NCBI GenBank assembly: GCA_037015955.1 | Contig: CP143548.1 | Coordinates: 737,501 to 801,500, forward strand | Length of the DNA: 64,000 bases | DNA from: Lachnospiraceae bacterium JLR.KK008 | GTDB lineage: Bacteria; Bacillota; Clostridia; Lachnospirales; Lachnospiraceae | Reading direction: 5' to 3' | Part shown: piece after piece, positions 1 to 36,851 of the stretch | Layout: every line of letters begins with the position of its first letter | Position numbering within the stretch: the stretch's first letter is position 1 | The notes under the pieces: model-generated | The model's database searches: none | What the model saw: the letters and a program-made list of their open reading frames with translations, nothing else | What the model was told of the DNA's origin: nothing | Translations under genes and position numbers: made by a program

Positions 1-1119
1 CCGCCATACGGGATTTTTCCAATTATGCGGCGTTCTGTTTTCTTCCGTCACAAGGTCTTTGTTGACATCTACGCCGAGACCGGGAAGTTTTGGCAGGTTT
101 ACATAACCGTCCACGAATGCGAAATCTTCCTGATTGTTGACGTAGTCGAGAACACTCTTGCCTACGTTGTAGTGAATGCCCATACTCTGTTCCTGAATGA
201 CTGCGTTATAAGAAGCGGCGTCCACATTCAGGCAGCTTGCCAGAGCGATCGGACCGAGCGGGCAGTGAGGCGCCAGCGCCACGTCATAGGCTTCCGCCAT
301 TGCGCCGATCTTCTTTACTTCGGTGATACCGCCGGCGTGGCTTAAATCAGGCTGAATGATGTCAACGCCGCCGATCTGCAGCAGCCGTTTGAAATCATAT
401 TTGCTGAACAGACGTTCTCCCGTGGCGATGGGAATGTTGCAGGCGGCTGCGATCTCCGGGAAGTATTCCATATTTTCACAGAGTACCGGCTCTTCGATGA
501 ACATCGGATCAAATTCTTCCAGCTTCTTTGCCAGTATTTTTGCCATAGGTTTGTGGACACGGCCGTGGAAGTCGATGGCGATGCCAAAATATTTTCCGCA
601 GGCCTCGCGGATCGCAGCGACCCGTTCCAGGACGGCGTCGACTTTATCATAGGTATCCACCATCTGCAGTTCTTCGGTGGCGTTCATTTTGATGGCGGTG
701 AAACCGGCATTTTTACGTTCGAGAGCTGCCGCGCCCACATCGCTCGGGCGGTCGCCGCCGATCCAACTGTACACTTTCATCTTATCATGACATTTCCCGC
801 CGAGCAGTTCATACACGGGAACGCCCAGCACTTTCCCCTTGATGTCCCAGAGCGCCTGATCGATACCGGAGATTGCGCTCATCAGAACACCGCCGCCACG
901 ATAAAAGCCAGCCCGGTATAATGTCGTCCAGATGTCCTCGATATTGGACGGGTCCGCATCCAGCAGATAATCTTTCATCTCCTGCACACAGGCGAGCACC
1001 GCATGACAATGCCCTTCCAGTACGGCTTCTCCCCAGCCGCTCAGCCCCTCGTCAGTGATGATCTCCACAAATCCCCATCTGGGACGCACATAATAAGTAT
1101 TGACTTCTCTGATCTTCAT
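1..1119 (-). CDS. dgoD: D-galactonate dehydratase, enolase superfamily (3' end cut by window)
   Basis: Dehydrates D-galactonate to 2-keto-3-deoxygalactonate in the cytoplasm. The reading frame runs 373 codons from the ATG at 1119, preceded by GGAGG, to the window edge; E. coli DgoD is about 382 residues, so only roughly the last ten are missing. Visible hallmarks are [13 protein letters not shown] (metal Asp and acid/base His), FIEEPV (metal Glu), TGERL (metal Glu), [12 protein letters not shown] and the late [12 protein letters not shown] His motif, plus the [11 protein letters not shown] tail shared with DgoD. It is the last visible gene of a leftward operon with aldolase and kinase genes. 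A related aldonate dehydratase is possible, but the match to DgoD is close along its length. Confidence 0.9.
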
Positions 1120-1192
1120 TTTTATCCTCCATTTCATACTGTGTATTTCTGGATTATAGTTGCGGTTATTCTCTGGCTGTTTCAGGAGACAT

Positions 1193-1822
1193 CTACTGTC
1201 CGAGCGCTCTTTTTACAAGATCGCGGATATAGGCGGAGCCTTCTTCCCAGTTTCCATTTTCGACGACGCTTTTTGGCATCAGGCTGCTTGCCAGGCCGGC
1301 GCTGATACAGCCGGCTTCAAAAAATTCGTGAATGTTGTCCGGGCTGACGCCGCCGATTGCCATGTAGTTGGTATTGTCAAAGGGACCCTTCAAATCTTTG
1401 ACATAAGAGCGGGGCATACTTCCTGCCGGAAACAGTTTCATCGTCCGGAAACCGAACTCCAGCGCAGTCGCCACATCACAGGGCGTCAGTACGCCGGGTA
1501 GCAGCATAATGTCATGCCTGGCGCAGTATTCGAGTACGTCGGGCGGTGTCCCCGGTGTGAGCAGAAACTGGGCGCCAGCATCGAGAGCGGCTTTCACCCG
1601 CTCTATAGTGATTGCGGTGCCCGCACCGATCATACAGGAATCCCCGAAGTGATCGCGGAGCATACGGATCTGCTTAAGTCCGTGTGTGCTGTTCAGCGCC
1701 ACTTCAAAAAATGGAATGCCGCCGTTGACGACGGCGTCGGCATAATCGATCGTCTTTTCCAGCGGTACATTGCGCATGATAGCCAGCAGAGGGTTTTTGC
1801 TGACGACAGAGTACATATCCAT
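1193..1822 (-). CDS. dgoA: 2-dehydro-3-deoxy-6-phosphogalactonate/gluconate aldolase (KDPG aldolase family)
   Basis: Class I aldolase that splits KDPGal or KDPG into pyruvate and glyceraldehyde 3-phosphate. At 209 residues it has the normal size for the family. Motifs seen are FFEVALNS with the catalytic Glu near residue 40, IGAGTA, FLLTPG, LPGVLTP, and MKLFPAG containing the Schiff-base Lys. The start at 1822 follows a GGAGG-type site in the short gap to the kinase gene upstream. Position between the dehydratase and the kinase assigns it to the DeLey-Doudoroff galactonate branch; sequence alone does not distinguish a galacto- from a gluco-specific enzyme. Confidence 0.88.
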
Positions 1823-1856
1823 AAGTATTGTTACCTCCTTGTGAGTTGTCTACAGT

Positions 1857-2804
1857 TTACCGATATACGAGAGCGTTTCCGTTTAATGCGGCTTCCATCT
1901 GCATGGCGTCTGGATAGCCTTCCACATCACCCGGTGTCTGGGTGGCGAGTGCGCCGCAGATGCAGCCCATCTGCCCGGCGGTGAGGAGATCTTTTCCCTG
2001 AAGGAAACCGGACAGGAAACCGGCATTGAATCCGTCTCCGGCGCCGATCGGCTCTATACAATGGCATGGATAGGGTGCGAGAGGGGTGATTGCCTCCGGA
2101 GTCATGACGATAGCGCCGTTTGCCCCGTCCTTGAGAATGACAGTCTGTGCCTTTCCTTTGGAAAATACCGTATTTGCGAGCTGCTCCGGGATGCGGCTGC
2201 CGAATAAAAATTCTCCTTCCTCCAGTCCCATCAGTACGATATGGCTTCGGAGGGTCAGGCTGCGGATCAGGTCCCCGAAGTCTCTGTCTTTCCAGAGCTT
2301 TTTGCGGATGTTGGGATCAAAGCTGATCTTCAGCCCATGTTTTTCCGCCAGATCAAAAGCGGCTCTGGTCATATCGGCACAGTCCTGACTGAGCACCGGT
2401 GTGATTCCTGTCATATGCAGAAGCGTTGTCTGTGCAAAGAGCGATTCGTCCAGATCGTCCGGCGTCATATGGCTGGCAGCGCTGCCGGACCTGTAATAAA
2501 AAACTTTTGTCTCACCGGGGCCGGTCTCCTTGAACATGACACCGGTCGGGTGTTCCCGGTCGAAGATCAGATGGCGGCAGTCCACTCCTTCGGACCGTGT
2601 CTGATTGCAGATGAAGTGACCGAACTCGTCTTCCCCGAGCCGGCTGACCCAGGCGGCGTCAATTCCTAATTTGGCGGCGCCAATGGCGACATTGCTTTCC
2701 GCACCTGCAATACGCATATGATAATCGTTAATATAACGAAGCGGACCGTTACTGCCCGGAGTGAAGGCGGCCATCGTTTCTCCTATCGTGATCATTTGCG
2801 GCAT
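1857..2804 (-). CDS. kdgK: PfkB-family 2-keto-3-deoxy-gluconate/galactonate kinase
   Basis: Phosphorylates KDG or KDGal at C6, giving the substrate of the aldolase encoded downstream. The 315-residue protein opens MPQMITIGETMAAF and carries the PfkB N-terminal glycine motif (RIAGAESNVAIGAAKLG), the substrate-side FDPNIRKKLW segment and the C-terminal anion-hole/catalytic motif IGAGDGFNAGF. The frame stays open upstream to 2945, but the ATG at 2804 has GGAGG eight bases before it, so that start is chosen. It is the first gene of the leftward operon. In this context a DgoK-like job on KDGal is likely although the family is the KdgK type, not the classical DgoK fold. Confidence 0.87.
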   Translation of the reverse strand: MPQMITIGETMAAFTPGSNGPLRYINDYHMRIAGAESNVAIGAAKLGIDAAWVSRLGEDEFGHFICNQTRSEGVDCRHLIFDREHPTGVMFKETGPGETKVFYYRSGSAASHMTPDDLDESLFAQTTLLHMTGITPVLSQDCADMTRAAFDLAEKHGLKISFDPNIRKKLWKDRDFGDLIRSLTLRSHIVLMGLEEGEFLFGSRIPEQLANTVFSKGKAQTVILKDGANGAIVMTPEAITPLAPYPCHCIEPIGAGDGFNAGFLSGFLQGKDLLTAGQMGCICGALATQTPGDVEGYPDAMQMEAALNGNALVYR

Positions 2805-3067
2805 ACTGTTTTCCTCCTGATTACATTTAGTATGGGAAAATTTGACATGGACGTGGAAATTGTCATATGAATTTTGGCGTTTGTCGTCCTGAAAATGTTG
2901 TTTTTCGTATGGAAGCAAACAAAAAATAACAAAACAGCTTCCCATTTATCTATAATATACATGGCATGGACAAAAATGAAAAGAGTCATATTGCACAAAA
3001 GAAACGAGTGATTCGTGTACAAAATGTTTAAAAATACAAGAAACAGACAAAAACAGGTCATATTTTG

Positions 3068-3096
3068 TTGACAGAAGTGCATAAAACTGTTACAGT
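3068..3096 (+). promoter_or_regulatory. Predicted sigma-A promoter of the symporter operon
   Basis: TTGACA at 3068-3073, a 17-base spacer and TACAGT at 3091-3096 lie 87 bases before the symporter start, in the 378-base divergent gap between the kinase gene and the symporter. No equally clear promoter was found for the leftward operon. Confidence 0.6.
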
Positions 3097-3182
3097 CAAA
3101 ACATACCTCATAAATCATCAGACAAATTATGAGAGGTGAGAGGATGCGCGCAGAAAAATGAGTGAGACAGGAGGAAGATGAA

Positions 3183-4670
3183 ATGTTAGATCCCAAATAT
3201 GTGCCGTTGTTTATTGGCGGATTTCTTGCTTACATAGTGATCATGATTCTTGTAGGCATTGTATCAACAAAGGGCAAGACGGACGGCTCTAATTTCCTGA
3301 CAGGAGGTGCCAATCTTGGCTTCTTTCTGATTTTCTGTACCGTCGGGGCGACGATGATTGGAACCGGTTCTTCCATGGGAGCCATCTCCAACGGCTATAA
3401 CAGCGGCTGGGCAGGCGCTATCTATGGCCTTGGCGCCAGCACCGGAATCCTGACGATGCTGATGTTCGTAAAGGTGCGGAAGAAAAACTTCATTACCATG
3501 TCAGAGGAAGCACAGTATTATTACGGGGGCAAGAAAATTGTGCGTCAGGTCATGGGCTTTATGATGTTTGTGATCGAGATCATATGGCTGGGCAATCATA
3601 TGAACGGCGGCTCCAAATATCTGGCATATATCACGGGCATGAGTGATATCATGTGCAAACTGATTACAGTGCTGGCATTTGCAGTGTATGTATTTATCGG
3701 CGGTTATCTGGCAGTTGTCGTTACCGACGCCGTACAGTTCTGTGTGATCGTTGCCGGCTTTGCGCTGATCGCAGTGAAGGCGATTCCGGCAGCAGGCGGT
3801 TTCGCACAGATCACGGCGGCTTTTGAGGCAGCCGACAAGAGTGGCGCCATGGGCTTTTACGGACTGGGGAATTATGGTGTGATGGCAGCCATCGCACTTG
3901 TATTATCTACTTATATGGGCGTAATCGGAACGCCGACACATCGGACCCGTATCTATACCTCGGCCGATGAGGGTGTTGCCAGGAGAGCGTTTATGTCGTC
4001 CGGCATTATGCTGTTTTTCTGGAGCTTTGTCACCGCAATCATTGGTATGAGCGCCTTTACGATCGCCACACATCAGGGAGTCACACTGGAATCCAGCGAC
4101 TATGCGTTTTCCTTCATGGCGACACATGTGCTCGGTCCGGTATTCGGTCTGCTTCTGATGATCGCAGGTCTTTCCGCGACGATGTCATCCGGTGATTCCG
4201 ATGCCATCTCCGGCATTACGATTCTGCTGACTGACGTCTATCCGAGTGTTACCGGGAAGACGATCAAAGAAGAAGACTATCCGAAATTCTCCCGGATCGC
4301 GCTTGTCGTAACGCTGACGATCGCATTTTTGATTACTTTGCTTGTGAATGACGTAATCGGGTATATCCAGTCGGTTGTCGGCTCTCTGCTTCCCGGCGTA
4401 GCAGTCTGTATGTTTATGGGACGGCTCTGGAAGAGAGCGACCTGGCAGGGAGGACTGGCAGCGATCTTTTCCGGCACTGGCTTTGGCGTGATCTTCCTCT
4501 GCTCCGGTGCGGTTCAGAACTGGGTGAATACGACACTGGGCGGCGCGGCGGTTCCGGCGACGATCATCAGCCTTGTATTTGGCGTTATCGTCAGTCTGGT
4601 GACACCGGAAGATACGACACCGGAGAATGAGAGAGTGGAAGCTGTGTTTGCGGCACGTCACGGCAAATAA
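3183..4670 (+). CDS. Sodium:solute symporter (SSS family)
   Basis: Membrane transporter of the SSS (TC 2.A.21) family with 495 residues and about 13 hydrophobic segments, expected to couple solute uptake to Na+. Typical features are the N-terminal segment followed by SNFLTGGANLG, the SSMGAISNGYNSGWAG region, GGYLAVVVTDAVQF and the late AGLSATMSSGDSDAISG motif, which contains the Ser residues of the second sodium site. The frame begins at a GTG at 3162, but AGGAGG at 3169-3174 sits eight bases before the ATG at 3183, which is taken as the start. First gene of the rightward operon; from its neighbours the substrate is probably an acidic sugar derivative or an N-acyl-D-amino acid. Family assignment is firm, substrate is not. 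Confidence 0.88.
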   Translation: MLDPKYVPLFIGGFLAYIVIMILVGIVSTKGKTDGSNFLTGGANLGFFLIFCTVGATMIGTGSSMGAISNGYNSGWAGAIYGLGASTGILTMLMFVKVRKKNFITMSEEAQYYYGGKKIVRQVMGFMMFVIEIIWLGNHMNGGSKYLAYITGMSDIMCKLITVLAFAVYVFIGGYLAVVVTDAVQFCVIVAGFALIAVKAIPAAGGFAQITAAFEAADKSGAMGFYGLGNYGVMAAIALVLSTYMGVIGTPTHRTRIYTSADEGVARRAFMSSGIMLFFWSFVTAIIGMSAFTIATHQGVTLESSDYAFSFMATHVLGPVFGLLLMIAGLSATMSSGDSDAISGITILLTDVYPSVTGKTIKEEDYPKFSRIALVVTLTIAFLITLLVNDVIGYIQSVVGSLLPGVAVCMFMGRLWKRATWQGGLAAIFSGTGFGVIFLCSGAVQNWVNTTLGGAAVPATIISLVFGVIVSLVTPEDTTPENERVEAVFAARHGK

Positions 4671-4725
4671 AGAGACAGCGAGAGGAAACAGACTTCCCTG
4701 AGAGGAAGCGATACATAACATGCGG

Positions 4726-4762
4726 AAACGGAGGGAGGAGGCAGCGTCTTTCCTCCGTTTTC
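4726..4762 (+). terminator. Hairpin between symporter and deacylase genes (weak terminator or processing stem)
   Basis: AAACGGAGG at 4726-4734 pairs with CCTCCGTTT at 4752-4760 around a 17-base loop, followed by few T residues. It may trim expression of the downstream enzymes relative to the transporter rather than end transcription. Confidence 0.4.
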
Positions 4763-4784
4763 TGTCGGTGAAATGGGAGGAGCT

Positions 4785-6407
4785 ATGGCAGGAATATTAT
4801 TAAAGAACGGACTGGTCTATGACGGGCTCGGAAATCCGGGAAGGAAGGCAGACGTTTTGATAAGGGACGACCGCATCGTGAAAGTGGGAGCGGCGGCAGA
4901 AGTTGCGGAGGCAGCGAAGGATGCCAGTCAGATACTTGACGTGTCGGGCAGCATTGTCTGTCCCGGGTTTGTGGATATTCACAGACATTGTGACGCGAAG
5001 CCCCTGAATGATCCGGCGTTCGGCGTGCGTGAGCTGGCGCAGGGGATCACGACGACAGTTGTCGGCAACTGCGGTATCAGTCCGACACCCTGTCCGGAGG
5101 ACGATGCGGGCGCCAGGGAAATGTATGATTTTGACGAGGCGGTGCTTGGCCCGCTGACGCTGGAGATGCCGAGAACTTATGCGGGGTATCTGGAAGCGCT
5201 CGGGAAAGCCCGGCTGCCGCTTAACTTTGCGACGATGATCGGTACCGGGGCAGTGAAAATCGCAGTCAGAGGATTTGCTGACACGCCTTATACAAAGGAA
5301 GAGCTGGATAAAGCGAGAGCGCTGATCGAAGATGCACTGGAGAGGGGCGCCTGCGGTATTTCCCTTGGCATTATGTATCTGCCGGAATGCTATTCTTCGG
5401 CGGATGAGTTTACCTATATTTTGGAACCGGTGGGCAGACACGGCAAAGTGATCACCGTCCATATCCGCGGAGAGGGCGACAGTCTGGTTGAAAGCATCCG
5501 GGAAGTGATCGGGATTGCCGCGAAAGCCGGCTGTGCGCTGGAGATCAGTCATTTTAAGAGCTGCGGTGTCGATAACTGGCGCAGAGATATTCATAAAGCG
5601 ATCGCCCTGATCGAAGAGGCGCGGGCGGCCGGACAGGATGTAACCTGTGACTTTTATCCCTATGAGGGAGGCAGTACGGCGCTGACGACGATGCTTCCTC
5701 CGGTATTTGTGGCCGGAGATATGACAAGGGCGCTTCAGCGGCTGGGTACGCCGGAGGGAGTTGAGGAATTTCGCAGGAGCAGCCGCATTCCCTACGAGGA
5801 CTGGGACAATTTCTGCGTGACACTTGGCTGGGAACGTATTATAATCAGTGGTGTGACGGAAGATAAATTCCGTCCGATGCTCGGTATGACAGTGACAGAT
5901 GCGGCGGCAAAGTTCGGGTATCCCGATGCGGAGGCACTGGCGGCGGATCTGATGCACACGGAAAACGGGAAGACGGCGATCATCAATATGAGCATGTGTC
6001 AGGATGACATTGACACGATCGCGAAGCTGCCGTATTCCAATATTATCTCGGATGCCATCTATGCGGATACGGACACGCCGCACCCGCGGATGTACGGTGC
6101 GTTTCCGAAGGTACTGCGGGAGTATGTGCGGGAGAGAGGCCTGTACACGATGGAAGAGGCCATTCATAAGATGACGGATCAGCCGGCCCGGCGTATGAAG
6201 CTGGAAGGCAGAGGACGGATCACAGAAGGCGCGTATGCGGACATTCTCGTATTCCGGCCGGAGCAGTTCCGGGACAATGCGACGTTCCAAAGCCCCGCCA
6301 ATCTGGCGACCGGTCTGGAATATGTGTTTGTGAACGGTCAGATGGCGGTCGACCACGACCGGAGAGTGGAAGACGTCCAAAACGGCAGCCTTCTGCTTGT
6401 AACATAG
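4785..6407 (+). CDS. N-acyl-D-amino-acid deacylase (D-aminoacylase family amidohydrolase)
   Basis: Zinc amidohydrolase expected to remove the acyl group from an N-acyl-D-amino acid. The 540-residue size fits D-aminoacylase. Visible motifs: N-terminal beta-sandwich strand GILLKNGLVYDG, metal-binding GFVDIHRHCD near residue 65, the family Cys in VVGNCGISPTP, GISLGIMYLPECYSS, HIRGEGDSL, EISHFKSCG with a metal His, and the closing YADILVF strand. Two Met codons are possible (4773, 4785); GGGAGG lies just before 4785, which is chosen. With RidA and a PLP enzyme next door, the released D-amino compound is probably deaminated at once. N-acyl-D-glutamate, simple D-amino acids or N-acetyl-aminoaldonates are all possible substrates. 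Confidence 0.85.
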   Translation: MAGILLKNGLVYDGLGNPGRKADVLIRDDRIVKVGAAAEVAEAAKDASQILDVSGSIVCPGFVDIHRHCDAKPLNDPAFGVRELAQGITTTVVGNCGISPTPCPEDDAGAREMYDFDEAVLGPLTLEMPRTYAGYLEALGKARLPLNFATMIGTGAVKIAVRGFADTPYTKEELDKARALIEDALERGACGISLGIMYLPECYSSADEFTYILEPVGRHGKVITVHIRGEGDSLVESIREVIGIAAKAGCALEISHFKSCGVDNWRRDIHKAIALIEEARAAGQDVTCDFYPYEGGSTALTTMLPPVFVAGDMTRALQRLGTPEGVEEFRRSSRIPYEDWDNFCVTLGWERIIISGVTEDKFRPMLGMTVTDAAAKFGYPDAEALAADLMHTENGKTAIINMSMCQDDIDTIAKLPYSNIISDAIYADTDTPHPRMYGAFPKVLREYVRERGLYTMEEAIHKMTDQPARRMKLEGRGRITEGAYADILVFRPEQFRDNATFQSPANLATGLEYVFVNGQMAVDHDRRVEDVQNGSLLLVT

Positions 6408-6498
6408 ATCACATTCAATGAATCAAGTGAATGGCTCAAAACCGAATCAATACCAGACAGTGGTTGAAAATAGAAAAATGGAAAAGGAGAGAGAAAAA

Positions 6499-6966
6499 AT
6501 GGCAAATGTATATGATGTGTTAAAAGAAAAAGGGATCACACTTCCGGCGCCGCCGCCAAAAGGGGGCGTCTATACGCCGGTGATGGAGTTTGGCGATAAC
6601 CTGTTATACTGCAGCGGCTGCGGACCGGACCTTGGAAACGGCAATACGGTCATCGGGAAACTGGGAAAAGATCTGACTGTGGAGGAAGGACAGAAGGCGG
6701 CATATAACTGTATGCTCAATCTGCTGGCGAATCTGGAGGCAAAACTGGGAGACCTGAACAAGATCAAGCGCTTTGTCAAAGTGCTTGGCTTTGTCCAGAG
6801 TGCGGATGATTTCTATCAGCAGCCGCAGGTTGTAAACGGCGGTTCGAATCTGATTCTGGAGCTTTTTGGCGAGGAGAGAGGACTGCCGGCGAGGACGGCG
6901 ATCGGCGTCAATGCCACGCCGGGTAATATCGCTGTGGAGATCGAGGTATTGGTGGAATACGAATAA
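6499..6966 (+). CDS. RidA-family enamine/imine deaminase
   Basis: RidA (YjgF/UK114) proteins hydrolyse reactive enamine or imine intermediates released by PLP-dependent dehydratases, yielding a 2-keto acid and ammonia. The 155-residue protein keeps the family layout: NLLYCSGCGPD, KAAYNCMLNLLANLEAKLGDLNKI, and LPARTAIGV with the active-site Arg. It is slightly longer than classic RidA (about 128), as in the YjgH/YoaB-like subgroups. The frame opens earlier at 6418, but AAGGAGA ten bases before the ATG at 6499 supports this start. Lying directly before a PLP dehydratase/aldolase gene, it most likely clears that enzyme's product. Confidence 0.88.
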   Translation: MANVYDVLKEKGITLPAPPPKGGVYTPVMEFGDNLLYCSGCGPDLGNGNTVIGKLGKDLTVEEGQKAAYNCMLNLLANLEAKLGDLNKIKRFVKVLGFVQSADDFYQQPQVVNGGSNLILELFGEERGLPARTAIGVNATPGNIAVEIEVLVEYE

Positions 6967-6980
6967 ACGGGGACTGAGAT

Positions 6981-8093
6981 ATGGAAAACAGATATAGCTT
7001 TGCGGGGCAGGAGGACATCATTTCCCCTCAGCTCGTCTACTATAGAGAGATCATTGAGGAAAATATCCGCCTTATGATCCGGCTGGCCGGTGGCAGTGAG
7101 CGTCTGTGGCCGCATGTGAAGACGCATAAGATGATAGAAATGGTCCGGCTCTTAATGGAGATGGGGATTTCCAGATTTAAATGTGCGACGATTGCAGAGT
7201 GCGAAATGTGCGGGGAAGCCGGCGCAGAACGGGCGGTGCTGGCGTATCCGCTTCTGGGGCCCAATATTGAACGGTTTCTGACTCTGAAGAAGAAGTTTCC
7301 CGGCACTTACTTCTATGCTGTTTCCGACAATACGGAACAGGTAAAGCGGATCGGAGAGGCGGCTGTGGAGGCGGGGGAGGAAGTTTCTCTTCTTGTCGAT
7401 GTGGATATGGGTCAGCACAGAACGGGCGTTCCGATTCCGTCAGTCGGGGAGACTTATCACATATGGAGCAAAATCGCGGGTGTAAAACCGGAAGGAATGC
7501 ACTGCTATGACGGTCATCGCCATGAGTCGGATGTGTCTGTGCGGGAGAGGTATGTCCGGGAGGCAGACGAGGCGCTGGAGGCTGTTAAGAAGCGTCTGAC
7601 GGAGGAAGGTTATGCCTGTGAGATCATGATCATGGGAGGGACGCCCTCCTTTCCCTGTCATCAGAAACTGACCGGGGAGTATTTAAGCCCGGGGACATGC
7701 GTGATTCAGGATGCGGGGTATGCCCAGGCGTATCCGGACCTGCCCTTCGTGCCGGGAGCGGCAGTGCTGACAAGAGTGGTCAGCCGTCCCGGCAGATATG
7801 AGTTTACGCTGGATATGGGGACAAAGGCGGTTGCCAGCGATCCGGCCGGGGAGCGGGCGGTGATCGCCGGCATGGAATATGCGCAGACTGTGCTCCAGAA
7901 TGAGGAACACTGGGTCGTGCGTGTGCCGCAGGAGCATGTGCAGGACATTCCGCCGGTGGGAACGGTCCTGTTTGCGGTTCCGACCCATGTATGCCCGACG
8001 AGCGCCCTCTATCCGGAAGTGCCGGTCGTTGCCGGTGGGAAACTGGATGACTGGTGGGAAGTGACTGCCAGAAACCGCAAAATTACGATTTGA
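6981..8093 (+). CDS. PLP enzyme of the D-threonine aldolase / D-serine dehydratase-like family
   Basis: A 370-residue fold-type III PLP enzyme: alanine-racemase-like N-terminal barrel plus the DSD-like C-terminal domain. The probable PLP Lys lies in WPHVKTHK near residue 49; LLVDVDMGQHRTG is the conserved strand after it; the late THVCPTSALYP with paired His and Cys is the divalent-metal site of this family. Members cleave D-threonine-type 3-hydroxy-D-amino acids or dehydrate D-serine and, as I recall without being able to check, D-glucosaminate dehydratase belongs here too. It starts 15 bases after the RidA gene, with which it is surely co-transcribed. Assignment to the family is firm; the substrate is inferred to be a 3-hydroxy D-amino acid. 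Confidence 0.83.
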   Translation: MENRYSFAGQEDIISPQLVYYREIIEENIRLMIRLAGGSERLWPHVKTHKMIEMVRLLMEMGISRFKCATIAECEMCGEAGAERAVLAYPLLGPNIERFLTLKKKFPGTYFYAVSDNTEQVKRIGEAAVEAGEEVSLLVDVDMGQHRTGVPIPSVGETYHIWSKIAGVKPEGMHCYDGHRHESDVSVRERYVREADEALEAVKKRLTEEGYACEIMIMGGTPSFPCHQKLTGEYLSPGTCVIQDAGYAQAYPDLPFVPGAAVLTRVVSRPGRYEFTLDMGTKAVASDPAGERAVIAGMEYAQTVLQNEEHWVVRVPQEHVQDIPPVGTVLFAVPTHVCPTSALYPEVPVVAGGKLDDWWEVTARNRKITI

Positions 8094-8097
8094 TGAT

Positions 8098-8113
8098 ATT
8101 ATAATGATATAAT
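8098..8113. promoter_or_regulatory. AT-rich palindrome before the FadR-type regulator gene
   Basis: ATTATA and TATAAT arms separated by four bases lie 26 bases before the regulator's start codon and also supply a possible -10 box. It could be an autoregulatory operator for the GntR-type protein, but it is short and AT-rich, so chance is not excluded. Confidence 0.3.
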
Positions 8114-8138
8114 AATTTGAGACAGACAGGATTGAAGT

Positions 8139-8879
8139 GTGACAGAATTGGAAAATGTAGAACAGAAAGTGCCAATGACACTGGCGAAACAGACCTCGGA
8201 GAAGATGCTGGAATATATCGCCAAACATCGTCTTGTTCCGGGGGACCGGCTTGGAACGGAACGAGAGATGGCGGAAGAGCTGGACGTAGGCAGGAGTACG
8301 GTCCGGGAGGCGATCAAAATACTTGTCTCCAGAAATATTCTGGAAGTGAAACAGGGGTCAGGTACGTATCTGTCACAGATGAGAGGGATCGCGGACGATC
8401 CGCTGGGGCTGGAGCTGATCCATGACCAGTTTAAACTGACCTGGGATCTGCTGGAGTTCAGGATCATGATCGAACCGCAGATCGCGGCTATGGCGGCGGC
8501 CAATGCCAGAAGGGATCAGATTTTGGAGATGGAGCGTCTCTGTGATCAGATGGAGGTCTTTGATGACAATGATCTGGAACGGCTTTATCCGGACACGAGG
8601 TTTCACATTTGCATTGCAGAGGCAAGCGGGAATCTGGTGGCGCCGAATCTGATCCCGATCATCAACAAAGCCGTGGAGCTGTTCATTCACTATACGAAAC
8701 GGGAGAAGACGCCGGAGACGGTAGCCACGCATCGGGAAATACTCGAGGGTATCCGGCGCAGGGATGCGAGCTGGGCGCAGGATATGATGCACATGCACCT
8801 GATGTTTAACAGGCAGGAGCTTCGGAGAGCGGCTATGAGGCAGGGGATCTCCTTTATCAACGGGCAGCAGATCATATAG
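8139..8879 (+). CDS. FadR-subfamily GntR transcriptional regulator
   Basis: Cytoplasmic repressor or activator with an N-terminal winged helix and C-terminal FCD ligand domain, 246 residues. The HTH is visible as VPGDRLGTEREMAEELDVGRSTVREAIKIL, followed by the wing LEVKQGSGTYL; the helical FCD part has the DTRFHICIAEASGN motif and later His residues (THREIL, HMHL) that bind metal or carboxylate ligands. FadR-type regulators commonly sense sugar acids, so control of both flanking operons is plausible. The start is GTG at 8139 with only a weak AGG upstream; ATG at 8175 would still keep the HTH. Confidence 0.87.
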   Translation: MTELENVEQKVPMTLAKQTSEKMLEYIAKHRLVPGDRLGTEREMAEELDVGRSTVREAIKILVSRNILEVKQGSGTYLSQMRGIADDPLGLELIHDQFKLTWDLLEFRIMIEPQIAAMAAANARRDQILEMERLCDQMEVFDDNDLERLYPDTRFHICIAEASGNLVAPNLIPIINKAVELFIHYTKREKTPETVATHREILEGIRRRDASWAQDMMHMHLMFNRQELRRAAMRQGISFINGQQII

Positions 8880-8921
8880 CGGGCAGTCCGTTCTGTGCAC
8901 ATGCGGCGGATGGGGATGATT

Positions 8922-10517
8922 ATGTTTCAATATGTATTGTTTGATCTTGACGGGACACTCACGGACCCGAAAGAAGGGATTACGAAAAGCGTACAATTTG
9001 CTTTGCGCAGACGGGGAATCCATGAACCTGATCTGAATAAGCTGGAGCCCTTTATCGGGCCCCCGCTTGTGGACAGTTTCATGGATTTTTACGGGATGAC
9101 GCAGGAGGAAGCCACGTTTGCCGTCGCCGATTACCGGGAACGGTTTGCGCCGATCGGGATATTTGAAAATAAAGTGTATCCGGGCATTCCGGAGATGCTG
9201 GAGCATTTGAAGGAAGCCGGTGTGAAGCTGGCAGTCGCCTCCAGCAAGCCGGAGGTTTATGTGGAACGGATACTGGAACACTTCGGTCTGAAGTCTTATT
9301 TTGATGTGGTGACGGGCAGCGATCTGAACGGCAGCCGCTGCGAGAAGGAAGAAGTAGTGGAGGAAACGTTGCGGCGCCTGGCGGCTGTCTGTGGAGAAAA
9401 TGACGATGATGTTATAAAGGCCGGGGAGGAAATAGACAGAAGTGCGGGAGCCATGGTAGGCGACCGGAAGTTTGACATCAGTGGCGCGAAAGAGTTCGGA
9501 CTGACTTCCATAGGTGTCTCCTACGGCTATGCGGCCAAGGGAGAGCTGAAAAACGCCGGAGCGGACTATATTGTCAGGTCGGTGAGAGAGCTGGAAAAAC
9601 TGCTGCTTGGCAACAAGGCGGCCTGGCAGACAGGCGGCGGGCCGATGTGGAAGCGCAGGACATCCGGCGGCGGGCCGGCCATGCGGCAGGGACAGGCAAA
9701 TGACGGCGGGGCGGCGCCGGCTCAGGCTCCGGCGGAAAATTCCAGCGTGTTTCTGCGTACCTGGCATATGCTGCTGCCGTTCATCCTCTATTATCTCGGA
9801 TATAATGCGTGTTATCTCGTGATCGCGACAATGGTGCAGCTTCTGACGGGGGTGGGCGAGACGACAGAGGCATGGTTCTATGAAAACAAAATGGCCGTGA
9901 CCTATCTGACAAGAGCTGTTTCCATTATGGCCGGGGCAGGTATTTTAGTTCCACTCTGGCGAAGGGAGCGGACAAAATGGCCGCCCAGGCGAAAGATTTC
10001 CTTTTTGACGCTCGGTATCCTGGCAGGGACGGCGGCGCTGGGAGTCAATATTCTGTTTGCACTGCTAAAGATCACGGAACTTTCTGCGCAGTATACGGAA
10101 GTACAGAGAACCCAATACCAGATGCCGCTTGTATGGGGACTGTTCCTGTACGGACTGATCACGCCTGCGGCGGAGGAGCTGTTGTTCCGGGGGCTGATTT
10201 ATAACAGGATGAAAAAATATTTTTCCGTCCTTCCGGCGGCGGTCGTTTCTTCGGTGCTGTTTGGCGCATATCATGGCAATCCGGTGCAGGCATTGTACGG
10301 AACGCTGCTCGGTCTGGTGATCGTTGATGTCTATGAGATGACGGGAGACTTTAAGGCGCCGGTCTTTGTACATGGTGTGGCTAATGCGGTGGTATTTGCT
10401 TTGACATACGATCCGGCTGTCTCGGCGGCGATCGGTACGCCGGTAAATTGTGCCATATTTTTGACACTCTGCGGCTTAAGTCTGCTGCGGATTCACAGGC
10501 GCGCGGCGCAGCGGTAA
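8922..10517 (+). CDS. Fusion of a HAD phosphatase and a CPBP (CAAX-type) intramembrane protease
   Basis: One uninterrupted frame joins two domains. Residues 1-220 form a phosphoglycolate-phosphatase-like HAD: FDLDGTLTD nucleophile motif at the N-terminus, AVASSKP as motif II, and GDRKFDISGAKEFG as motif IV. A Gly/Ala/Gln-rich linker follows, then about eight membrane segments with the CPBP signature: PAAEELLFRGL (EExxxR), FGAYHGN and VFVHGVANA. The HAD half alone matches the length of Gph-like enzymes and the second half that of stand-alone Abi/CPBP proteases. Start codons at 8895-8916 are possible; 8922 gives the usual HAD N-terminus and has GGGGA before it. No frameshift is needed, so the fusion appears real. 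Function of the combination is unknown. Confidence 0.82.
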   Translation: MFQYVLFDLDGTLTDPKEGITKSVQFALRRRGIHEPDLNKLEPFIGPPLVDSFMDFYGMTQEEATFAVADYRERFAPIGIFENKVYPGIPEMLEHLKEAGVKLAVASSKPEVYVERILEHFGLKSYFDVVTGSDLNGSRCEKEEVVEETLRRLAAVCGENDDDVIKAGEEIDRSAGAMVGDRKFDISGAKEFGLTSIGVSYGYAAKGELKNAGADYIVRSVRELEKLLLGNKAAWQTGGGPMWKRRTSGGGPAMRQGQANDGGAAPAQAPAENSSVFLRTWHMLLPFILYYLGYNACYLVIATMVQLLTGVGETTEAWFYENKMAVTYLTRAVSIMAGAGILVPLWRRERTKWPPRRKISFLTLGILAGTAALGVNILFALLKITELSAQYTEVQRTQYQMPLVWGLFLYGLITPAAEELLFRGLIYNRMKKYFSVLPAAVVSSVLFGAYHGNPVQALYGTLLGLVIVDVYEMTGDFKAPVFVHGVANAVVFALTYDPAVSAAIGTPVNCAIFLTLCGLSLLRIHRRAAQR

Positions 10518-17340: not shown

Positions 17341-18126
17341 ATGAGTTTACTGCAAGCGCTCCTTGTTGCACTCGTTGCGGCAGTGAGCAGATTAGAAGGG
17401 GACTGGCTGGGTGAATGCAAACTGCGTGAGCCGGTCGTAACTGGTTTTCTGGTAGGATTGGTTTTAGGAGATGTCAAGACAGGTTTGATCATTGGCGCAG
17501 AGCTGCAGTTGATGTGGATGGGTGCGACCGGGATTGGCCCGACCGCGCAGCTGGACATCGGTATCGGAGGAACGATCGGTACCGCAGTTGCGATCATGAC
17601 GGGAACAGGCGCCGAGACTGCGATTCTTTTCGGAGTGCCGGTGGCGGTCATCATGCAGTTTTTGAATACGCTTCTGATGTCGTCATATTCGGGCGTTATG
17701 GTAGCCGCCGATCATAAGATAGACGAACTTGATTTCCGCGGCATTCGCTTTCTGCACTATTTCTGTGGAATCTGTACCGGACTTGCATATTTCGCGCCAA
17801 CCTTTTTCGTGATGTATTTTGGAAATGCGGTTATTGAGAAGATCGTTGCCGGTATGCCGGAATGGGTGAATCTGGGGCTTTCGGGCGTGGCAGCCATCCT
17901 GCCTTGTCTTGGATTTGCGCTTCTGCTCAACATCATTATGGAAAAGAAGCTGGTTCCCTATTTTATTCTGGGATTTATTCCGGCCGCCTATGTCGGGTTT
18001 GATCTGACAATGATCGCGATTGCCGGTGTCGCCGTCGCAATCGCCTGGATTATCTATATGCTGAGACAGAATGAGGGTGTGAAAGTGGAAGCGGTGTCAG
18101 CTTCCGACGATGAATGGGAGGATTAG
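17341..18126 (+). CDS. PTS mannose/sorbose-family EIIC component
   Basis: Membrane channel subunit (261 residues) of a mannose-family phosphotransferase system. The family signature is visible as LEGDWLGECKLREPVVTGFLVGLVLGD split over residues 18-45, with ELQLMWMGATGIGPTAQLDIGIGGTIGTA after it, and several hydrophobic helices. It is the first gene of the operon, with AAGGAGG before the ATG and only three bases to the IID gene. Substrate cannot be read from this subunit; the SIS-fold enzyme downstream suggests a fructosamine-type sugar-amine conjugate. Confidence 0.93.
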   Translation: MSLLQALLVALVAAVSRLEGDWLGECKLREPVVTGFLVGLVLGDVKTGLIIGAELQLMWMGATGIGPTAQLDIGIGGTIGTAVAIMTGTGAETAILFGVPVAVIMQFLNTLLMSSYSGVMVAADHKIDELDFRGIRFLHYFCGICTGLAYFAPTFFVMYFGNAVIEKIVAGMPEWVNLGLSGVAAILPCLGFALLLNIIMEKKLVPYFILGFIPAAYVGFDLTMIAIAGVAVAIAWIIYMLRQNEGVKVEAVSASDDEWED

Positions 18127-18129
18127 ACC

Positions 18130-18969
18130 ATGGCGAAAAAGAATGAAATCATCAGTGCGGAAAACAATATAACAAGAAAGGATTTCAGAGGGATATTCTG
18201 GAGGAGCTTCGCGATTCTCGGGTCTATGAACTATGAGAGAATGGAAGGGCTGGGGTTTTTATTCTCCATCATGCCTGTTTTGCGCAAGATCTACAAGGGA
18301 GATGACGAAGCGCTGAAAGCAGCCATGCATCGGCATATCGCAGCCTTTAATATGACGGTCGCGCCTTCCCCGTTCGTCATGGGGACGACGATCGCCATGG
18401 AAGAGGAGGCAAAAAAGTCAGAAGATTTTGACGTCTCTTCGATCAATGCGATTAAAGTTTCTCTGATGGGACCGTTATCCGGCATCGGCGATACCTTCTT
18501 CTGGGGGATTATCCGCATCCTTGCCTGTGCGCTGGCTGTCGGTTTTGCGAAAGAGGGAAATGTCATTGCGCCGTTCGTACTGTTATTGGTGTTCAATATT
18601 CCCAATTTCCTGACCAGGTGGATCACATTGTTCCTTGGATATGAAAAAGGGTCGACACTGTTATCAGACATGCAGGCCAACGGCACGATGCAGTTGTTTA
18701 CACACTGCGCAGGGATTATCGGAGCGATGTCCATGGGATGTATGATTGCCATGTGGATCAGCATTACCTGCCCGCTGCAGTTCACTCTAGCAGGCAGCGA
18801 GATTATCATTCAGGAATATCTGGATCAGATCCTGCCGAAAATGCTCCCGCTTGTGTTCACGCTCGGTATTTTCAGTTTTATCAAAAAGAAATACAAAGTA
18901 CAGAAGATTATAGCAGGGATTGTCGTGCTCGGATTTCTGCTCGGTATCCTGGGACTGATCTCCATGTAG
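18130..18969 (+). CDS. PTS mannose/sorbose-family EIID component
   Basis: Partner membrane subunit of EIIC, 279 residues. Family features are ITRKDFRGIFWRSFAILGSMNYERMEGLGF near the start, FNMTVAPSPFVMGTTIAMEEE, the KVSLMGPLSGIGDTFFWG motif, and a hydrophobic C-terminus. Nearly abutting the IIC gene, so translational coupling is likely. A 102-base gap separates it from the IIB gene. Confidence 0.93.
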   Translation: MAKKNEIISAENNITRKDFRGIFWRSFAILGSMNYERMEGLGFLFSIMPVLRKIYKGDDEALKAAMHRHIAAFNMTVAPSPFVMGTTIAMEEEAKKSEDFDVSSINAIKVSLMGPLSGIGDTFFWGIIRILACALAVGFAKEGNVIAPFVLLLVFNIPNFLTRWITLFLGYEKGSTLLSDMQANGTMQLFTHCAGIIGAMSMGCMIAMWISITCPLQFTLAGSEIIIQEYLDQILPKMLPLVFTLGIFSFIKKKYKVQKIIAGIVVLGFLLGILGLISM

Positions 18970-19071
18970 AAAACAGAAAAGGGTTGCAATGAGAAGAGAC
19001 TATGGGACTGTGGATGCGCTGTCCGCAGATCCCGTCAGTGGAAGAAAAACAGCGCAGAAACGAGGTATGGT

Positions 19072-19554
19072 ATGGCAATTTTGGATGTCAGGATTGATGA
19101 CAGACTGATCCACGGGCAGGTGTGCGGATTTTGGATTCCGCAGTATTCTCTGGAACGGATCGCGATCGTGGACGATGCGATCGTAAACGACGAGGTGCGT
19201 AAAACGGCGCTTAAATTCGGTTGTCCGGAAAAATGTAAGCTGTCGATCTTCGGGTCCGAGAAGGCGGCTGATAAGTTTCAGCGCAGGATCGACGAAGGAA
19301 TCCGGGTTATGATCCTCTGCAACAGCCCGGTACCAATCCTGCGGATGGCAGAATTTGGATATGAGGTGCCATGGGTGACTGTGGGCAACATGGCGACAAA
19401 GCCGGATGCCATTCAGGTAAAAAAGACGGTTTTTGTCTCACCGGAAGAGAAAGAGGCCTTTATCGGGCTGGCGCAGCGGGGGATCAAAATCTATTCCCAG
19501 ATGGTACCGAACGAGCCGCGCGAGGACATCTCGGACATATGGAAAAATTTATGA
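19072..19554 (+). CDS. PTS mannose/sorbose-family EIIB component
   Basis: Soluble 160-residue subunit that takes phosphate from EIIA and hands it to the sugar. The N-terminus MAILDVRIDDRLIHGQV carries the phosphorylated His at residue 14, and VTVGNMATKPDAIQVKKTVFVS is the usual central segment. GAGGT precedes the ATG. Order IIC-IID-IIB-SIS-IIA differs from the common IIA-IIB-IIC-IID but keeps all four parts. Confidence 0.93.
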   Translation: MAILDVRIDDRLIHGQVCGFWIPQYSLERIAIVDDAIVNDEVRKTALKFGCPEKCKLSIFGSEKAADKFQRRIDEGIRVMILCNSPVPILRMAEFGYEVPWVTVGNMATKPDAIQVKKTVFVSPEEKEAFIGLAQRGIKIYSQMVPNEPREDISDIWKNL

Positions 19555-19611
19555 TATGGATCAGATAGATACATTTGGCATGTTGAAAAAACAGGAAAGG
19601 AATGATAAGTG

Positions 19612-20703
19612 ATGATACAGCAGACAGTTATTGGAAATATGAAATCTCAGCCGGAGGTGCTGAAGTACACATTGGAAAACCAGAACGTGTTTGTAGACCC
19701 GTTTGTGGAGATCTTTCGCAGGCATGATATTCGCAAAGTATTTTTCTTTGGTTCGGGAACTTCTTATAACGTTTCCCAGATTGCGGCATATTATTTCAAA
19801 CAGATCGTGGGGATTGACGCCAGCGCGCAGTATCCTACGGTATACAAACATTATGAAAAGCCGGACTGGACGGGGATGCTGAGTAACGAGCAGATCCTGT
19901 ATGTTGGGATCAGTCAGTCGGGAACGAGTGTGTCCACATGTGAAGTGATGGAGTTTGCAAAGGAAAACGGTTATCAGACACTGGCGATCACAGGCAACCT
20001 CGAAAGCCGGATTGCGGGACTGGTAGACACTGTGGTCCATCTTCTCGTGGGAGATGAACTGACCCCGCCCGAGACGAAAGGATACACGGTTTCCGTGCTC
20101 AGCGTCTATCTGTGGGCCATCGGTGCGGCAAAAGAAAAGGGCGTCTATACGCAGGAGCGGTATGATGCGGCAGTGGCAGAGGCCAGAGAGCTGGTGGACA
20201 ATTTCCAGACGGTCATCGAGGAGAGCGAGGCGTGGTATGACAGAAATAAAGTCTCCATTGTTGGCAGCGACAGATTATATGTCCTTGGCTATGGTGTAGA
20301 CTACGGTTCGATGCTGGAAGGCGTTCTGAAGATCGGGGAGATGCTGCGGCTTCCGATCGCGGGCTATGAGCTGGAAGAATATTCCCATGGACCGACAATG
20401 GCGCTGAACAATATGCAGACATTATTTATGATCGGGTCCGACGATGCGGAATTCGAGCGCATGATGGAGTTTCGCAGTGTATATAAGAAATACACGCCGA
20501 GGATTCATGTCATCACCTGCAAAGACATTGATGCAGACGAAAGAGATATGGTCTTCAGCGTCAAGACAAATAAATATCTTGCTCCGCTGATGTATACGGT
20601 GCCGTTCCAGTTTGTGGCGGCAAAAGGCGCGAAGGAAGTACATATTGACACCAATATCAATCCTTTTGAAGAACCGCTCGCCCATTATCCGGCGGCACAA
20701 TAA
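19612..20703 (+). CDS. SIS-domain sugar isomerase/deglycase (FrlB/GfrF-like)
   Basis: A 363-residue tandem SIS-fold protein related to the isomerase half of glucosamine-6-phosphate synthase. Motifs: FFFGSGTSYNVSQIAAYYF and YVGISQSGTSVSTCEVM (sugar-phosphate Ser/Thr pocket of SIS domain 1), and GYELEEYSHGPTMAL in domain 2 holding the candidate catalytic Glu and His. Such proteins next to mannose-family PTS genes split fructose- or glucose-amine 6-phosphates (for example glucoselysine-6-P or fructoselysine-6-P) to sugar phosphate and amine. A GTG at 19609 is an alternative start; the ATG three bases on is chosen. An aldose-ketose isomerase or AgaS-like deaminase role is not excluded. Confidence 0.8.
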   Translation: MIQQTVIGNMKSQPEVLKYTLENQNVFVDPFVEIFRRHDIRKVFFFGSGTSYNVSQIAAYYFKQIVGIDASAQYPTVYKHYEKPDWTGMLSNEQILYVGISQSGTSVSTCEVMEFAKENGYQTLAITGNLESRIAGLVDTVVHLLVGDELTPPETKGYTVSVLSVYLWAIGAAKEKGVYTQERYDAAVAEARELVDNFQTVIEESEAWYDRNKVSIVGSDRLYVLGYGVDYGSMLEGVLKIGEMLRLPIAGYELEEYSHGPTMALNNMQTLFMIGSDDAEFERMMEFRSVYKKYTPRIHVITCKDIDADERDMVFSVKTNKYLAPLMYTVPFQFVAAKGAKEVHIDTNINPFEEPLAHYPAAQ

Positions 20704-20799
20704 CGGTTGATTGCGAAGCGGGCTGTTTCCTGGCAGATAAACAGTCCGCTTTGCATTTTGGGAGAGAGCAGTGAGAAAGGAGCGAAAGAGGAGACAGTT

Positions 20800-21228
20800 A
20801 TGACAGGGATTATGGTAGTAGGACACGGACATTTTGCAACGGGCATCAGCAGTGCAGCGCAGCTCATCGTCGGAAAACAGCGCAATTATGCAGCGGTGGA
20901 TTTTCCGGAGGGCGATACCAAGACAGAGCTGGAGGCGCATATCAGAGAAGCGCTGGATACGATGAGGGATATGGAACAGATTTTGATCTTCTGTGATATT
21001 TTAAACGGTTCTCCATTTCATACAGTGATGATGGAATCCATAAAAGATCATCGTCTGCGCGTCTATTATGGGACGAATCTTGCCATGCTGATCGAGATTT
21101 TGATGGACCGGGAACTGGGCAATCAGGAGGAAGGTCTGCAGGCGCGTCTTCTGGAATGCGGCCGGGAGCAGATTGGCGCCTTCGTGCCGGAGGATATGAA
21201 GGCAGTGGAAGAGGACGCCTGGGACTGA
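20800..21228 (+). CDS. PTS mannose-family EIIA component
   Basis: Soluble 142-residue EIIA, phosphorylated by HPr. The start MTGIMVVGHGHFATGISSAAQ has the phosphorylatable His in VVGHGHFATG (His9), and ILIFCDILNGSPFHTVM is the conserved later strand. The ATG at 20800 is preceded by AAGAGGAGA. Completes the four-part transporter encoded from 17341 onward. Confidence 0.92.
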   Translation: MTGIMVVGHGHFATGISSAAQLIVGKQRNYAAVDFPEGDTKTELEAHIREALDTMRDMEQILIFCDILNGSPFHTVMMESIKDHRLRVYYGTNLAMLIEILMDRELGNQEEGLQARLLECGREQIGAFVPEDMKAVEEDAWD

Positions 21229-25336: not shown

Positions 25337-25510
25337 ATGATACCAAAAGATCCGGTCATGCTCCTTAGCTTTCTCAATGTAAAACTGCGGGACCGGTATT
25401 CCAGTCTGACACAGTTGTGCGAGGATCTGGACATCAGTGAGGCGCAGGTGAGAGAAACGCTGAGCGGCATCGATTATCGTTACGATGAGGGGAGAAATCA
25501 GTTTGTGTAG
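25337..25510 (+). CDS. DUF4250 small protein
   Basis: A 57-residue protein opening MIPKDPVMLLSFLNVKLRD with ENDs like LDISEAQVRETLSGIDYRYDEGRNQFV, typical of DUF4250, a small conserved protein of Clostridia with a helix-turn-helix-like region. AGGAGG before the ATG at 25337 supports this start over 25319. Function is unknown. Its 3' end overlaps the next gene. Confidence 0.82.
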   Translation: MIPKDPVMLLSFLNVKLRDRYSSLTQLCEDLDISEAQVRETLSGIDYRYDEGRNQFV

Positions 25511-35776: not shown

Positions 35777-36205
35777 ATGAGAACTTTTATGGCGAGTCCG
35801 TCTACAATCGACAGAAAGTGGTACGTGGTAGACGCTACGAATATGACATTAGGACGTTTGGCATCGGAAGTTGCCAAAATTTTAAGAGGGAAGAACAAAC
35901 CGATCTTCACTCCTCATATGGATACCGGTGACAATGTGATCATTATCAATGCCGAGAAGGTGAAAGTAACGGGCAAGAAGCTGGATCAGAAGATCTATTA
36001 CCATCATTCCGAGTATGTGGGCGGTATGAAGGAAACGACTCTGAGAGAGAAAATGGCAAAGAAACCGGAGCAGGTTGTCGAGCTTGCGGTTAAGGGGATG
36101 CTTCCGAAAGGACCTTTGGGAAGACAAATGTTTAAGAAACTTCACGTATACGCAGGGCCGGAGCATGCACATGCAGCACAAAAGCCTGAAGTGCTGACAT
36201 TTTAA
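35777..36205 (+). CDS. rplM: 50S ribosomal protein L13
   Basis: Structural protein of the large ribosomal subunit, 142 residues as usual. Starts [20 protein letters not shown] and contains [33 protein letters not shown] and [27 protein letters not shown] precedes the ATG. Followed 30 bases later by rpsI. Confidence 0.98.
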
Positions 36206-36235
36206 TCGAAAGGGACAAAGAAGGAGGAATCAGAA

Positions 36236-36631
36236 ATGGCTAAAACAGCAAGATACTACGGAACAGGCAGAAGAAAAAAATCGATCGCCAGAGTATACTT
36301 AGTACCCGGAAAAGGCGATATTACCATTAATAAAAGAAACATTGATGATTATTTCGGATTAGAGACGTTGAAAGTGATCGTGCGTCAGCCTCTCGTTGCC
36401 ACAGAGAACGTTGAGAAGTATGATGTGCTCGTAAACGTAAAAGGCGGCGGCTTTACAGGGCAGGCAGGTGCAATCAGACACGGTATCTCCAGAGCGCTGC
36501 TTCAGGTGGACGTTGAGTACAGACCGACATTGAAGAAAGCCGGCTTCCTGACAAGAGACCCTCGTATGAAAGAGAGAAAGAAATACGGTCTCAAAGCGGC
36601 AAGACGTGCACCGCAGTTCAGCAAGAGATAG
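36236..36631 (+). CDS. rpsI: 30S ribosomal protein S9
   Basis: Small-subunit protein of 131 residues with the [19 protein letters not shown] start, the [18 protein letters not shown] central motif and the invariant basic C-terminus ending FSKR. Last gene of the operon before a strong terminator; the mobile region begins just after it. Confidence 0.98.
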
Positions 36632-36656
36632 TTTGGAACAGAATAAGAGATTTTAT

Positions 36657-36694
36657 AAAACCCTTGAAAATGCTGGATTTTCAAGGGTTTTCTT
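36657..36694 (+). terminator. Terminator of rplM-rpsI
   Basis: AAAACCCTTGAAAAT and ATTTTCAAGGGTTTT form a perfect 15-bp stem with a five-base loop, followed by CTTT. Confidence 0.92.
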
Positions 36695-36743
36695 TATATC
36701 TGTATTTTCTGAAATTGTGCTAAAAAGTGCTGAATTTTGAAGC

Positions 36744-36777: not shown

Positions 36778-36851
36778 CGAGGGAATAAAAATCTTGTGTC
36801 TTGCGTAAGAGTTTTGTATAATGCGGTTATCAAGGAAAAGGCGGTGTTTTC

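Follow-up and report, generated by a model that had tools for sequence, protein, structure and literature searches.

A divergent gene block of a Lachnospiraceae bacterium that may join N-acetylated amino-aldonate catabolism to a galactonate trunk

Which compounds feed a gene block of Lachnospiraceae bacterium JLR.KK008 in which a galactonate-type operon stands back to back with genes for a symporter, a deacylase, a RidA protein and a pyridoxal phosphate (PLP) enzyme? The block lies across the left end of the 64,000-nucleotide stretch of contig CP143548.1 analysed here (the window, whose numbering is used for coordinates; L and G numbers stand for the loci and the genomes compared), in a host genome of 3.19 Mb in one contig. 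A first-pass annotation had proposed a combined pathway, in which an N-acetylated 2-amino-aldonate is imported, deacetylated and converted to 2-keto-3-deoxygluconate or 2-keto-3-deoxygalactonate (KDG or KDGal, together KDG(al)), so that galactonate and amino arms share one trunk, made of a KDG(al) kinase and an aldolase acting on the phosphorylated product, KDPG(al). All eight genes that it named were confirmed at their places by Pfam and NCBIfam profile matches, on which the gene calls are based, start codons being picked by us, and its combined-pathway interpretation is partly supported by the results below. From sequence comparisons, we consider it probable that the block is one catabolic unit, a variant of the oxidative chitin-sugar (ong) route made of non-orthologous enzymes and sharing its KDG(al) trunk with galactonate. 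The enzymes are familiar, their combination is unusual.

The ong pathway of Pseudoalteromonas prydzensis is an oxidative chitin pathway that consumes the oxidised amino sugar GlcNAc1A (PMC9537276). The marine route that the first-pass annotation had alluded to is real, and GlcNAc1A catabolism is treated in PMC12017989 and PMC11653859 as well. Deletion of ongIT abolished growth on GlcNAc1A only, the importer role being established by deletion and complementation, and the OngIT group lies nearer to sodium/glucose and sodium/sialic acid cotransporters than to sodium/amino acid cotransporters (PMC9537276). The Na+/solute symporter (SSS) gene of the block (3183..4670, plus strand) was assigned to this GlcNAc1A importer subfamily by sequence identity. 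Its product is 35-42% identical to the SSS proteins of four ong clusters (39.7% to OngIT of Pseudoalteromonas sp. CF6-2, 42.3% to OngIT of Vibrio THAF191d), whereas the two other SSS proteins encoded in the host genome are at 20-25%. The CF6-2 ong genes were named from gene order and annotation; CF6-2 OngB matched PpOngB (PDB 9kb1) along almost its full length, with 823 bits. A tblastn search of 72,556 plasmid records with the SSS sequence gave 101 records with a match, the best 30 of which were inspected. The top ten (35.5-42.3% identity, 266-354 bits) came from Vibrio, Pseudoalteromonas and Klebsiella, and the remaining 20 were at 23-27%. Several of the top ten are near-identical strains, so that they stand for about five lineages. 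Nine of these ten records were also among the D-aminoacylase matches, and SSS, OngB, OngC and OngD genes were found together in all five neighbourhoods opened (L101-L105). Among 397 sampled genomes of the family, an OngIT-type symporter was present in two, this one and G269 (locus L011), both of which have the genes of the amino arm (hereafter the cassette) together with DgoD; among 391 genomes of the class it was present in this one alone, the PLP enzyme alignment matching two. These results strongly suggest that the symporter is a member of the OngIT subfamily.

The eight genes form two divergent operons, with short gaps between same-strand genes. They are part of a block of about 11.4 kb that lies between clpB and a HAD-CPBP fusion gene and encodes, in this order, IlvD/Edd, DgoD, the aldolase, the kinase, SSS, the deacylase, RidA, the PLP enzyme and FadR. 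We infer its substrates, order of steps and regulation as follows. DgoD would convert D-galactonate to KDGal, as is known for its family. In the amino arm, the Na+ symporter would bring in a 2-acetamido-2-deoxy-aldonate, from which the D-aminoacylase-type enzyme would cleave off acetate; the PLP enzyme would then expel, via its metal, the 3-hydroxyl of the D-configured 3-hydroxy amino acid, and hydrolysis of the enamine or imine, aided by RidA, would give KDG or KDGal plus ammonia. The PfkB kinase followed by the KDPG(al) aldolase would yield pyruvate and glyceraldehyde 3-phosphate. An IlvD/Edd-family dehydratase, encoded in the same block 612-2369 bases to the left of the window (L002:9132-10889), may feed the trunk by a third route. 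It is a divergent paralog (514 bits, for an IlvD cut-off of 618), and a second member of the family elsewhere in the genome scored better (463 bits, compared to 366).

On the galactonate side, the DgoD-type D-galactonate dehydratase of the enolase superfamily (1..1119, minus strand) reached 621.5 bits with NF010624, whose cut-off is 311. The identity proposed for it stands; the gene is not complete in the window, as it runs 30 bases past the left end (frame L002:11471-12637, start set at 12619). The protein aligned end to end with 3rr1, deposited as a putative D-galactonate dehydratase, and carries D183, H185, E209, E235 and H285, which we take to be the catalytic residues of E. coli DgoD, under the same numbers. 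The class I aldolase of the KDPG/KDPGal type (1193..1822, minus strand; PF01081) passed TIGR01182 with 171 bits for a cut-off of 156; this score with the general Eda model, compared to 140 bits with the KDPGal model, is neutral or slightly against a galacto-configured substrate. The third gene (1857..2804, minus strand; PF00294) encodes a PfkB kinase, probably a KDG/KDGal kinase, whose best model is NF040938 and which is 23% identical to KdgK. When this kinase was searched for in seven relatives, a close protein was found in G217 (49%), the others being at 34% or below. The G217 kinase lies on the same contig as the G217 cassette, about 43 kb away, in a cluster (L128:743-9268) with TRAP transporter, MBL-fold, DUF362, class-V aminotransferase-fold and KDPG aldolase genes, and a RidA gene on the opposite strand; no DgoD was recognised in this cluster, which is possibly another amino-sugar-acid route.

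For the amino arm, the earlier description of the PLP enzyme as similar to D-threonine aldolase or D-serine dehydratase was correct for the family and could be narrowed. The fold-type III enzyme (6981..8093, plus strand; K47, R147, H336-x-C338), which we propose to be a 2-amino-2-deoxy-aldonate dehydratase/ammonia-lyase, combines the PLP lysine K47 with a His-x-Cys metal site (H336, C338) of the D-serine dehydratase type, as in 3anu. D-threonine aldolase 4v15 has Asp at the column of Cys338, hence a His-x-Asp site; the metal ligands of both types of enzymes are described in PMC4401734. Of the non-reference rows, all 28 that carry a residue at the position of this ligand have Cys; the L016 row is truncated at that column. 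The enzyme also departs from the aldolases at a second place of the multiple alignment, so that it falls outside them on both counts: Cys is at the Asp349 column, and Glu182 is at the His193 column, with His181 adjacent. The metal site is, by strong indication of these residues, of the dehydratase type. The product of a dehydratase would be an enamine or imine, which fits the presence in the block of a RidA/YjgF-family gene (6499..6966, plus strand; PF14588, PF01042), a proposed enamine/imine hydrolase.

The deacylase (4785..6407, plus strand) is a subtype V amidohydrolase with the D-aminoacylase fold, and a proposed N-acetyl-hexosaminate deacetylase. It keeps the metal and catalytic residues that define subtype V (H66, H68, C96, H226, H256, D423), as well as the carboxylate and acetamido anchors Y198, K258, Y291, S297 and R435. 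Two attempts to discriminate further gave little. Foldseek with the structural model (pLDDT 94.6) returned 3gip, 9kb1, 1m7j and 9g5m, all with TM scores (by query) of 0.79-0.82. A check of the OngB residues, meant to decide on the substrate, was negative at positions 290 and 292, but the insertion domain is longer than in OngB, so that the Gln298 position is unsafe to align and loop 2 is unalignable, and the substrate stays unsettled by this check. In actinobacterial clusters among the other deacylase loci (L068, L082, L083, L086, L096, L098), a PfkB kinase gene points away from genes for a PLP enzyme of the OngC clade, a relative of D-aminoacylase and an aldolase of the KDPG type. Alignment of five of their deacylases (those of L068, L082, L083, L096 and L098) showed Asp for the metal Cys and Thr for the carboxylate Lys, and these clusters are possibly ong-like routes with an altered deacylase.

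The next question is whether the two arms meet in other genomes, which had been set beforehand as a refuting test of the shared trunk. At E <= 1e-30, 9 of 299 sampled genomes of the family gave a match to the PLP enzyme, this one included and one of them with a distant form. A D-aminoacylase-type deacylase (DAA) gene adjoins the PLP gene in L013, L014 and L017; none was seen in the stretch examined around the PLP gene in L012, L015, L016 and L018. Most of the gene set was recovered at two loci. In L011, DgoD is divergent from SSS, DAA, RidA, PLP and FadR genes, followed by IlvD/Edd, and the contig ends just past DgoD, before any linked kinase or aldolase could show. In L019, DgoD is divergent from SSS, DAA, Fe-ADH, RidA, PLP and FadR genes, again followed by IlvD/Edd, and two aldolase-kinase pairs stand beside the cassette. 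The Enterocloster locus L020 has trunk genes but neither SSS nor DgoD: DAA, RidA, PLP, regulator, KDGal-type kinase (PF05035) and aldolase genes follow one another behind sugar ABC transporter genes. A deacylase survey of the species collection, which gave at least 80 loci among the matches listed, from 532 relatives, was then scored for trunk genes, here either a KDG-type kinase or a KDPG-type aldolase, at more than 100 bits, a threshold of our choice. Trunk genes were present in the examined flank of 8 of 15 loci with a PLP gene and of 0 of 65 without (P = 2e-7), some contigs being short and the loci phylogenetically non-independent. Six of the 8 trunk-bearing loci are actinobacterial; with actinobacteria left out, the counts were 2 of 8 PLP-DAA loci (L019 and L020) and 0 of 61 loci without PLP (P = 0.012). 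The evidence that the galactonate and amino arms co-occur across genomes is strong, and the refuting outcome, arms that are never found together, did not arise.

Several observations nevertheless weigh against a single unit working on amino-aldonates. The kinase had been called a KDG/KDGal kinase; with 198 bits for a cut-off of 400 in NF040938, its PfkB family is certain and its substrate is not. In the deacylase, Gly296 and Thr298 replace Ser290 and Ser292 of OngB; D-aminoacylases have Thr at the latter position, and the S292T change leaves PpOngB 1.3% of its kcat/Km (PMC12017989). In trees, the deacylases of the window, L019, L011 and L020 clustered together with support and were separated from OngB (100/100), and the PLP clade of the window was separate from OngC (100/100). 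Since both residues differ and the clade is separate, the deacylase is not an OngB, and homology to the marine route, which the first-pass annotation could not verify, holds for the importer and not, as orthology, for the deacylase and the PLP enzyme. Conservation of the neighbourhood is likewise partial, as no trunk genes were found in the examined flank of 6 of the 8 non-actinobacterial PLP-DAA loci, three of which (L022, L023 and L024, the former two belonging to the genomes of L017 and L014, respectively) lie beside ABC transporter and glycosidase-family genes. Judging by such sister cassettes, the substrates could also be ordinary N-acyl-D-amino acids. In Treponema parvum, SSS, DAA and RidA genes are together and the PLP gene is elsewhere; trunk genes were recognised at neither locus, though KDPG-type aldolases exist in that genome. 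The DHDPS-family, semialdehyde dehydrogenase and decarboxylase genes next to its PLP gene resemble lysine biosynthesis and were rejected as a KDG aldolase route. A Bacteroidota locus (L100:6623-11240) combines a symporter annotated as gluconate:H+, DUF4833, RidA, a D-threonine aldolase-type PLP enzyme and a membrane dipeptidase; the dipeptidase suggests amino acids, and the symporter makes the locus readable either way. The PLP enzyme, lastly, is overall nearest to D-threonine aldolase, in sequence and in fold.

Part of these points would be accounted for by ordinary catabolism of N-acyl-D-amino acids, in which the deacylase would free D-Ser or D-Thr, the PLP enzyme would turn them into pyruvate or 2-oxobutyrate and ammonia, RidA would clear the imine, and the galactonate operon would be a mere neighbour. 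Thr298, the loci lacking trunk genes and the dipeptidase speak for it, and OngC itself takes D-Ser and D-Thr (PMC9537276). We hold it to be rather doubtful, given that the importer is of the OngIT type, unlike other SSS proteins, that DgoD and IlvD/Edd accompany the cassette both here and in two further genomes (L011 and L019), and that the whole block is missing as a unit in the genus mate G767, where clpB and HAD-CPBP are about 0.9 kb apart instead of 11.4 kb. This difference reflects either a gain here or a loss in G767, and the empty site is known from that genome only, no clpB match being found within the 19 kb taken from G080, which also tempers the single-unit reading. Alternatively, the genes for galactonate and those for the amino-aldonate could be two independent modules that were transferred together, KDG being finished by trunk enzymes encoded elsewhere in the genome. 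KDPG-type aldolases were indeed present in 9 of 9 relatives checked, and the deacylase and PLP genes lack a linked trunk in several relatives. However, the kinases differ, those of L019 matching the window kinase with 83 and 55 bits and that of L020 belonging to another family, which suggests that the cassette acquired trunk genes on more than one occasion, and independence of the modules appears unlikely. As for the resemblance to D-threonine aldolase, it could mean that the PLP enzyme is a retro-aldolase that cleaves a 3-hydroxy-D-amino acid to glycine plus an aldehyde, the amino arm bypassing the trunk; His181, which neighbours the His193 column, even lines up with this aldolase base in a pairwise alignment. 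Yet the Asp ligand of the aldolase is replaced by Cys338 here and by Cys in each of the 27 other rows that have a residue at this column, the His adjacent to the His193 column is absent from L012, L020, L022 and L026, and an aldolase would not need RidA, all of which makes this reading very improbable.

The preferred reading remains a single catabolic unit sharing its KDG(al) trunk with galactonate. D-glucosaminate and D-galactosaminate differ at C4 only, and their products would be KDG and KDGal, respectively. The galacto-configuration is preferred because of DgoD in the trunk operon and of the KDGal-type kinase in Enterocloster, the gluco-configuration being a plausible alternative. As a tentative proposal, the block could thus be an N-acetyl-D-galactosaminate (GalNAc-onate) pathway of Lachnospiraceae-type Bacillota, with deacetylation, PLP-dependent dehydration to KDGal and a KDGal trunk shared with DgoD, its deacylase and PLP dehydratase having evolved independently of OngB and OngC. 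No report of an N-acetylgalactosaminate catabolic route was found among the papers listed by searches of the open-access literature.

Regulation was examined in the 378-base spacer between the two operons (2805..3182). A sigma-70-like promoter directed toward the symporter (3068-3096, plus strand) matches at 10 of 12 positions; 19 such sites were found in 11 kb, compared to 9.3 in shuffled sequences. Control of both divergent operons is probably exerted by the FadR/FCD-type GntR regulator (8139..8879, plus strand; PF07729, PF00392), relatives of which occupy the equivalent place in L011 and L019, adjoining IlvD/Edd in both. A candidate FadR-type site, TCGTGTACAAAA, at 3013-3024 is also present in the homologous L011 spacer. 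The operator motif is weak, with 1 match in the window at one mismatch or less for 0.55 expected by chance. The shared motif TCGTGYACAAAA was not significant alone: it occurs in the window and in the L011 spacer, with a near-match in L019 (two mismatches, by eye) and a further exact copy in L105 that is not among the ong genes.

Other features of the window were noted in passing. Next to the block, a HAD phosphatase is fused to a CPBP/Rce1-like membrane protease (8895-10517), and G767 and G080 have frames of about this length that match both of its parts. A mannose-family phosphotransferase system (IIC, IID, IIB, IIA) with a SIS-domain protein (17341-21225) has the pattern of an uptake operon for amine sugars of the Amadori type. 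A RACo-type reductive activator of corrinoid proteins (25485-26918) suggests corrinoid methyltransferase metabolism. G+C falls to 0.38-0.40 at 36001-44000, compared to about 0.50 for the window, and this stretch contains a resolvase N-terminal domain (39463-39876) and a GNAT protein (40302-41111).

The oxidised-amino-sugar route has been tied to oxygen-using chitin lytic polysaccharide monooxygenases (LPMOs), mainly in Gammaproteobacteria (PMC9537276). No PF03067 match, hence no AA10 chitin LPMO, was found in the present genome, so that any source of oxidised chitin would have to be external. If the single-unit reading is right, a parallel route would exist in a Lachnospiraceae-type genome that is probably anaerobic, as we assume for this strain, and that gave no AA10 LPMO match; N-acetylated aldonates would then serve as nutrients in further habitats, where other organisms or host oxidants may be their source. 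It would also mean that the D-aminoacylase and D-serine dehydratase folds were adapted to amino-sugar acids on more than one occasion, and some genes annotated as "D-aminoacylase" or "D-TA family" could therefore be carbohydrate enzymes. The OngIT-type symporter and a linked KDG(al) kinase and aldolase could serve as markers.

How does the block compare with known systems? The De Ley-Doudoroff pathway for D-galactonate uses DgoD, DgoK and DgoA. The block resembles it in having DgoD, a kinase and an aldolase in a single operon, and differs by a PfkB-type kinase instead of DgoK, by an SSS gene as its only transporter gene and by the amino-acid-like arm joined on. For haloarchaea, a phosphorylated glucosaminate route has been proposed, unlike that of the block (PMC12343721). 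The ong-type cluster of a Klebsiella plasmid record (L102:7571-13975) likewise associates SSS, deacylase, RidA and PLP deaminase with trunk genes, but its deacylase has the OngB residues and its trunk is a DgoK-family kinase with a KDPGal aldolase (298.8 bits, cut-off 207), where PMC9537276 names kdgA for Klebsiella. Sequence stretches of PDB 9g5m match this L102 deacylase. With ong itself, the block shares the proposed order of reaction types and the protein classes, namely an OngIT-type symporter, a D-aminoacylase-type deacetylase, RidA, a PLP deaminase and a PfkB kinase, a KDG kinase in ong and a probable one here, as well as an aldolase, present in some ong genera. The differences lie in the deacylase, PLP enzyme and RidA, which are not orthologous to OngB, OngC and OngD (32%, 22% and 26% pairwise identity, respectively, with the CF6-2 proteins), in the regulator, of the FadR type (GntR/FCD) here and of the RpiR type in ong, and in the host, a member of the Bacillota, whose block adds the DgoD and IlvD/Edd arms.

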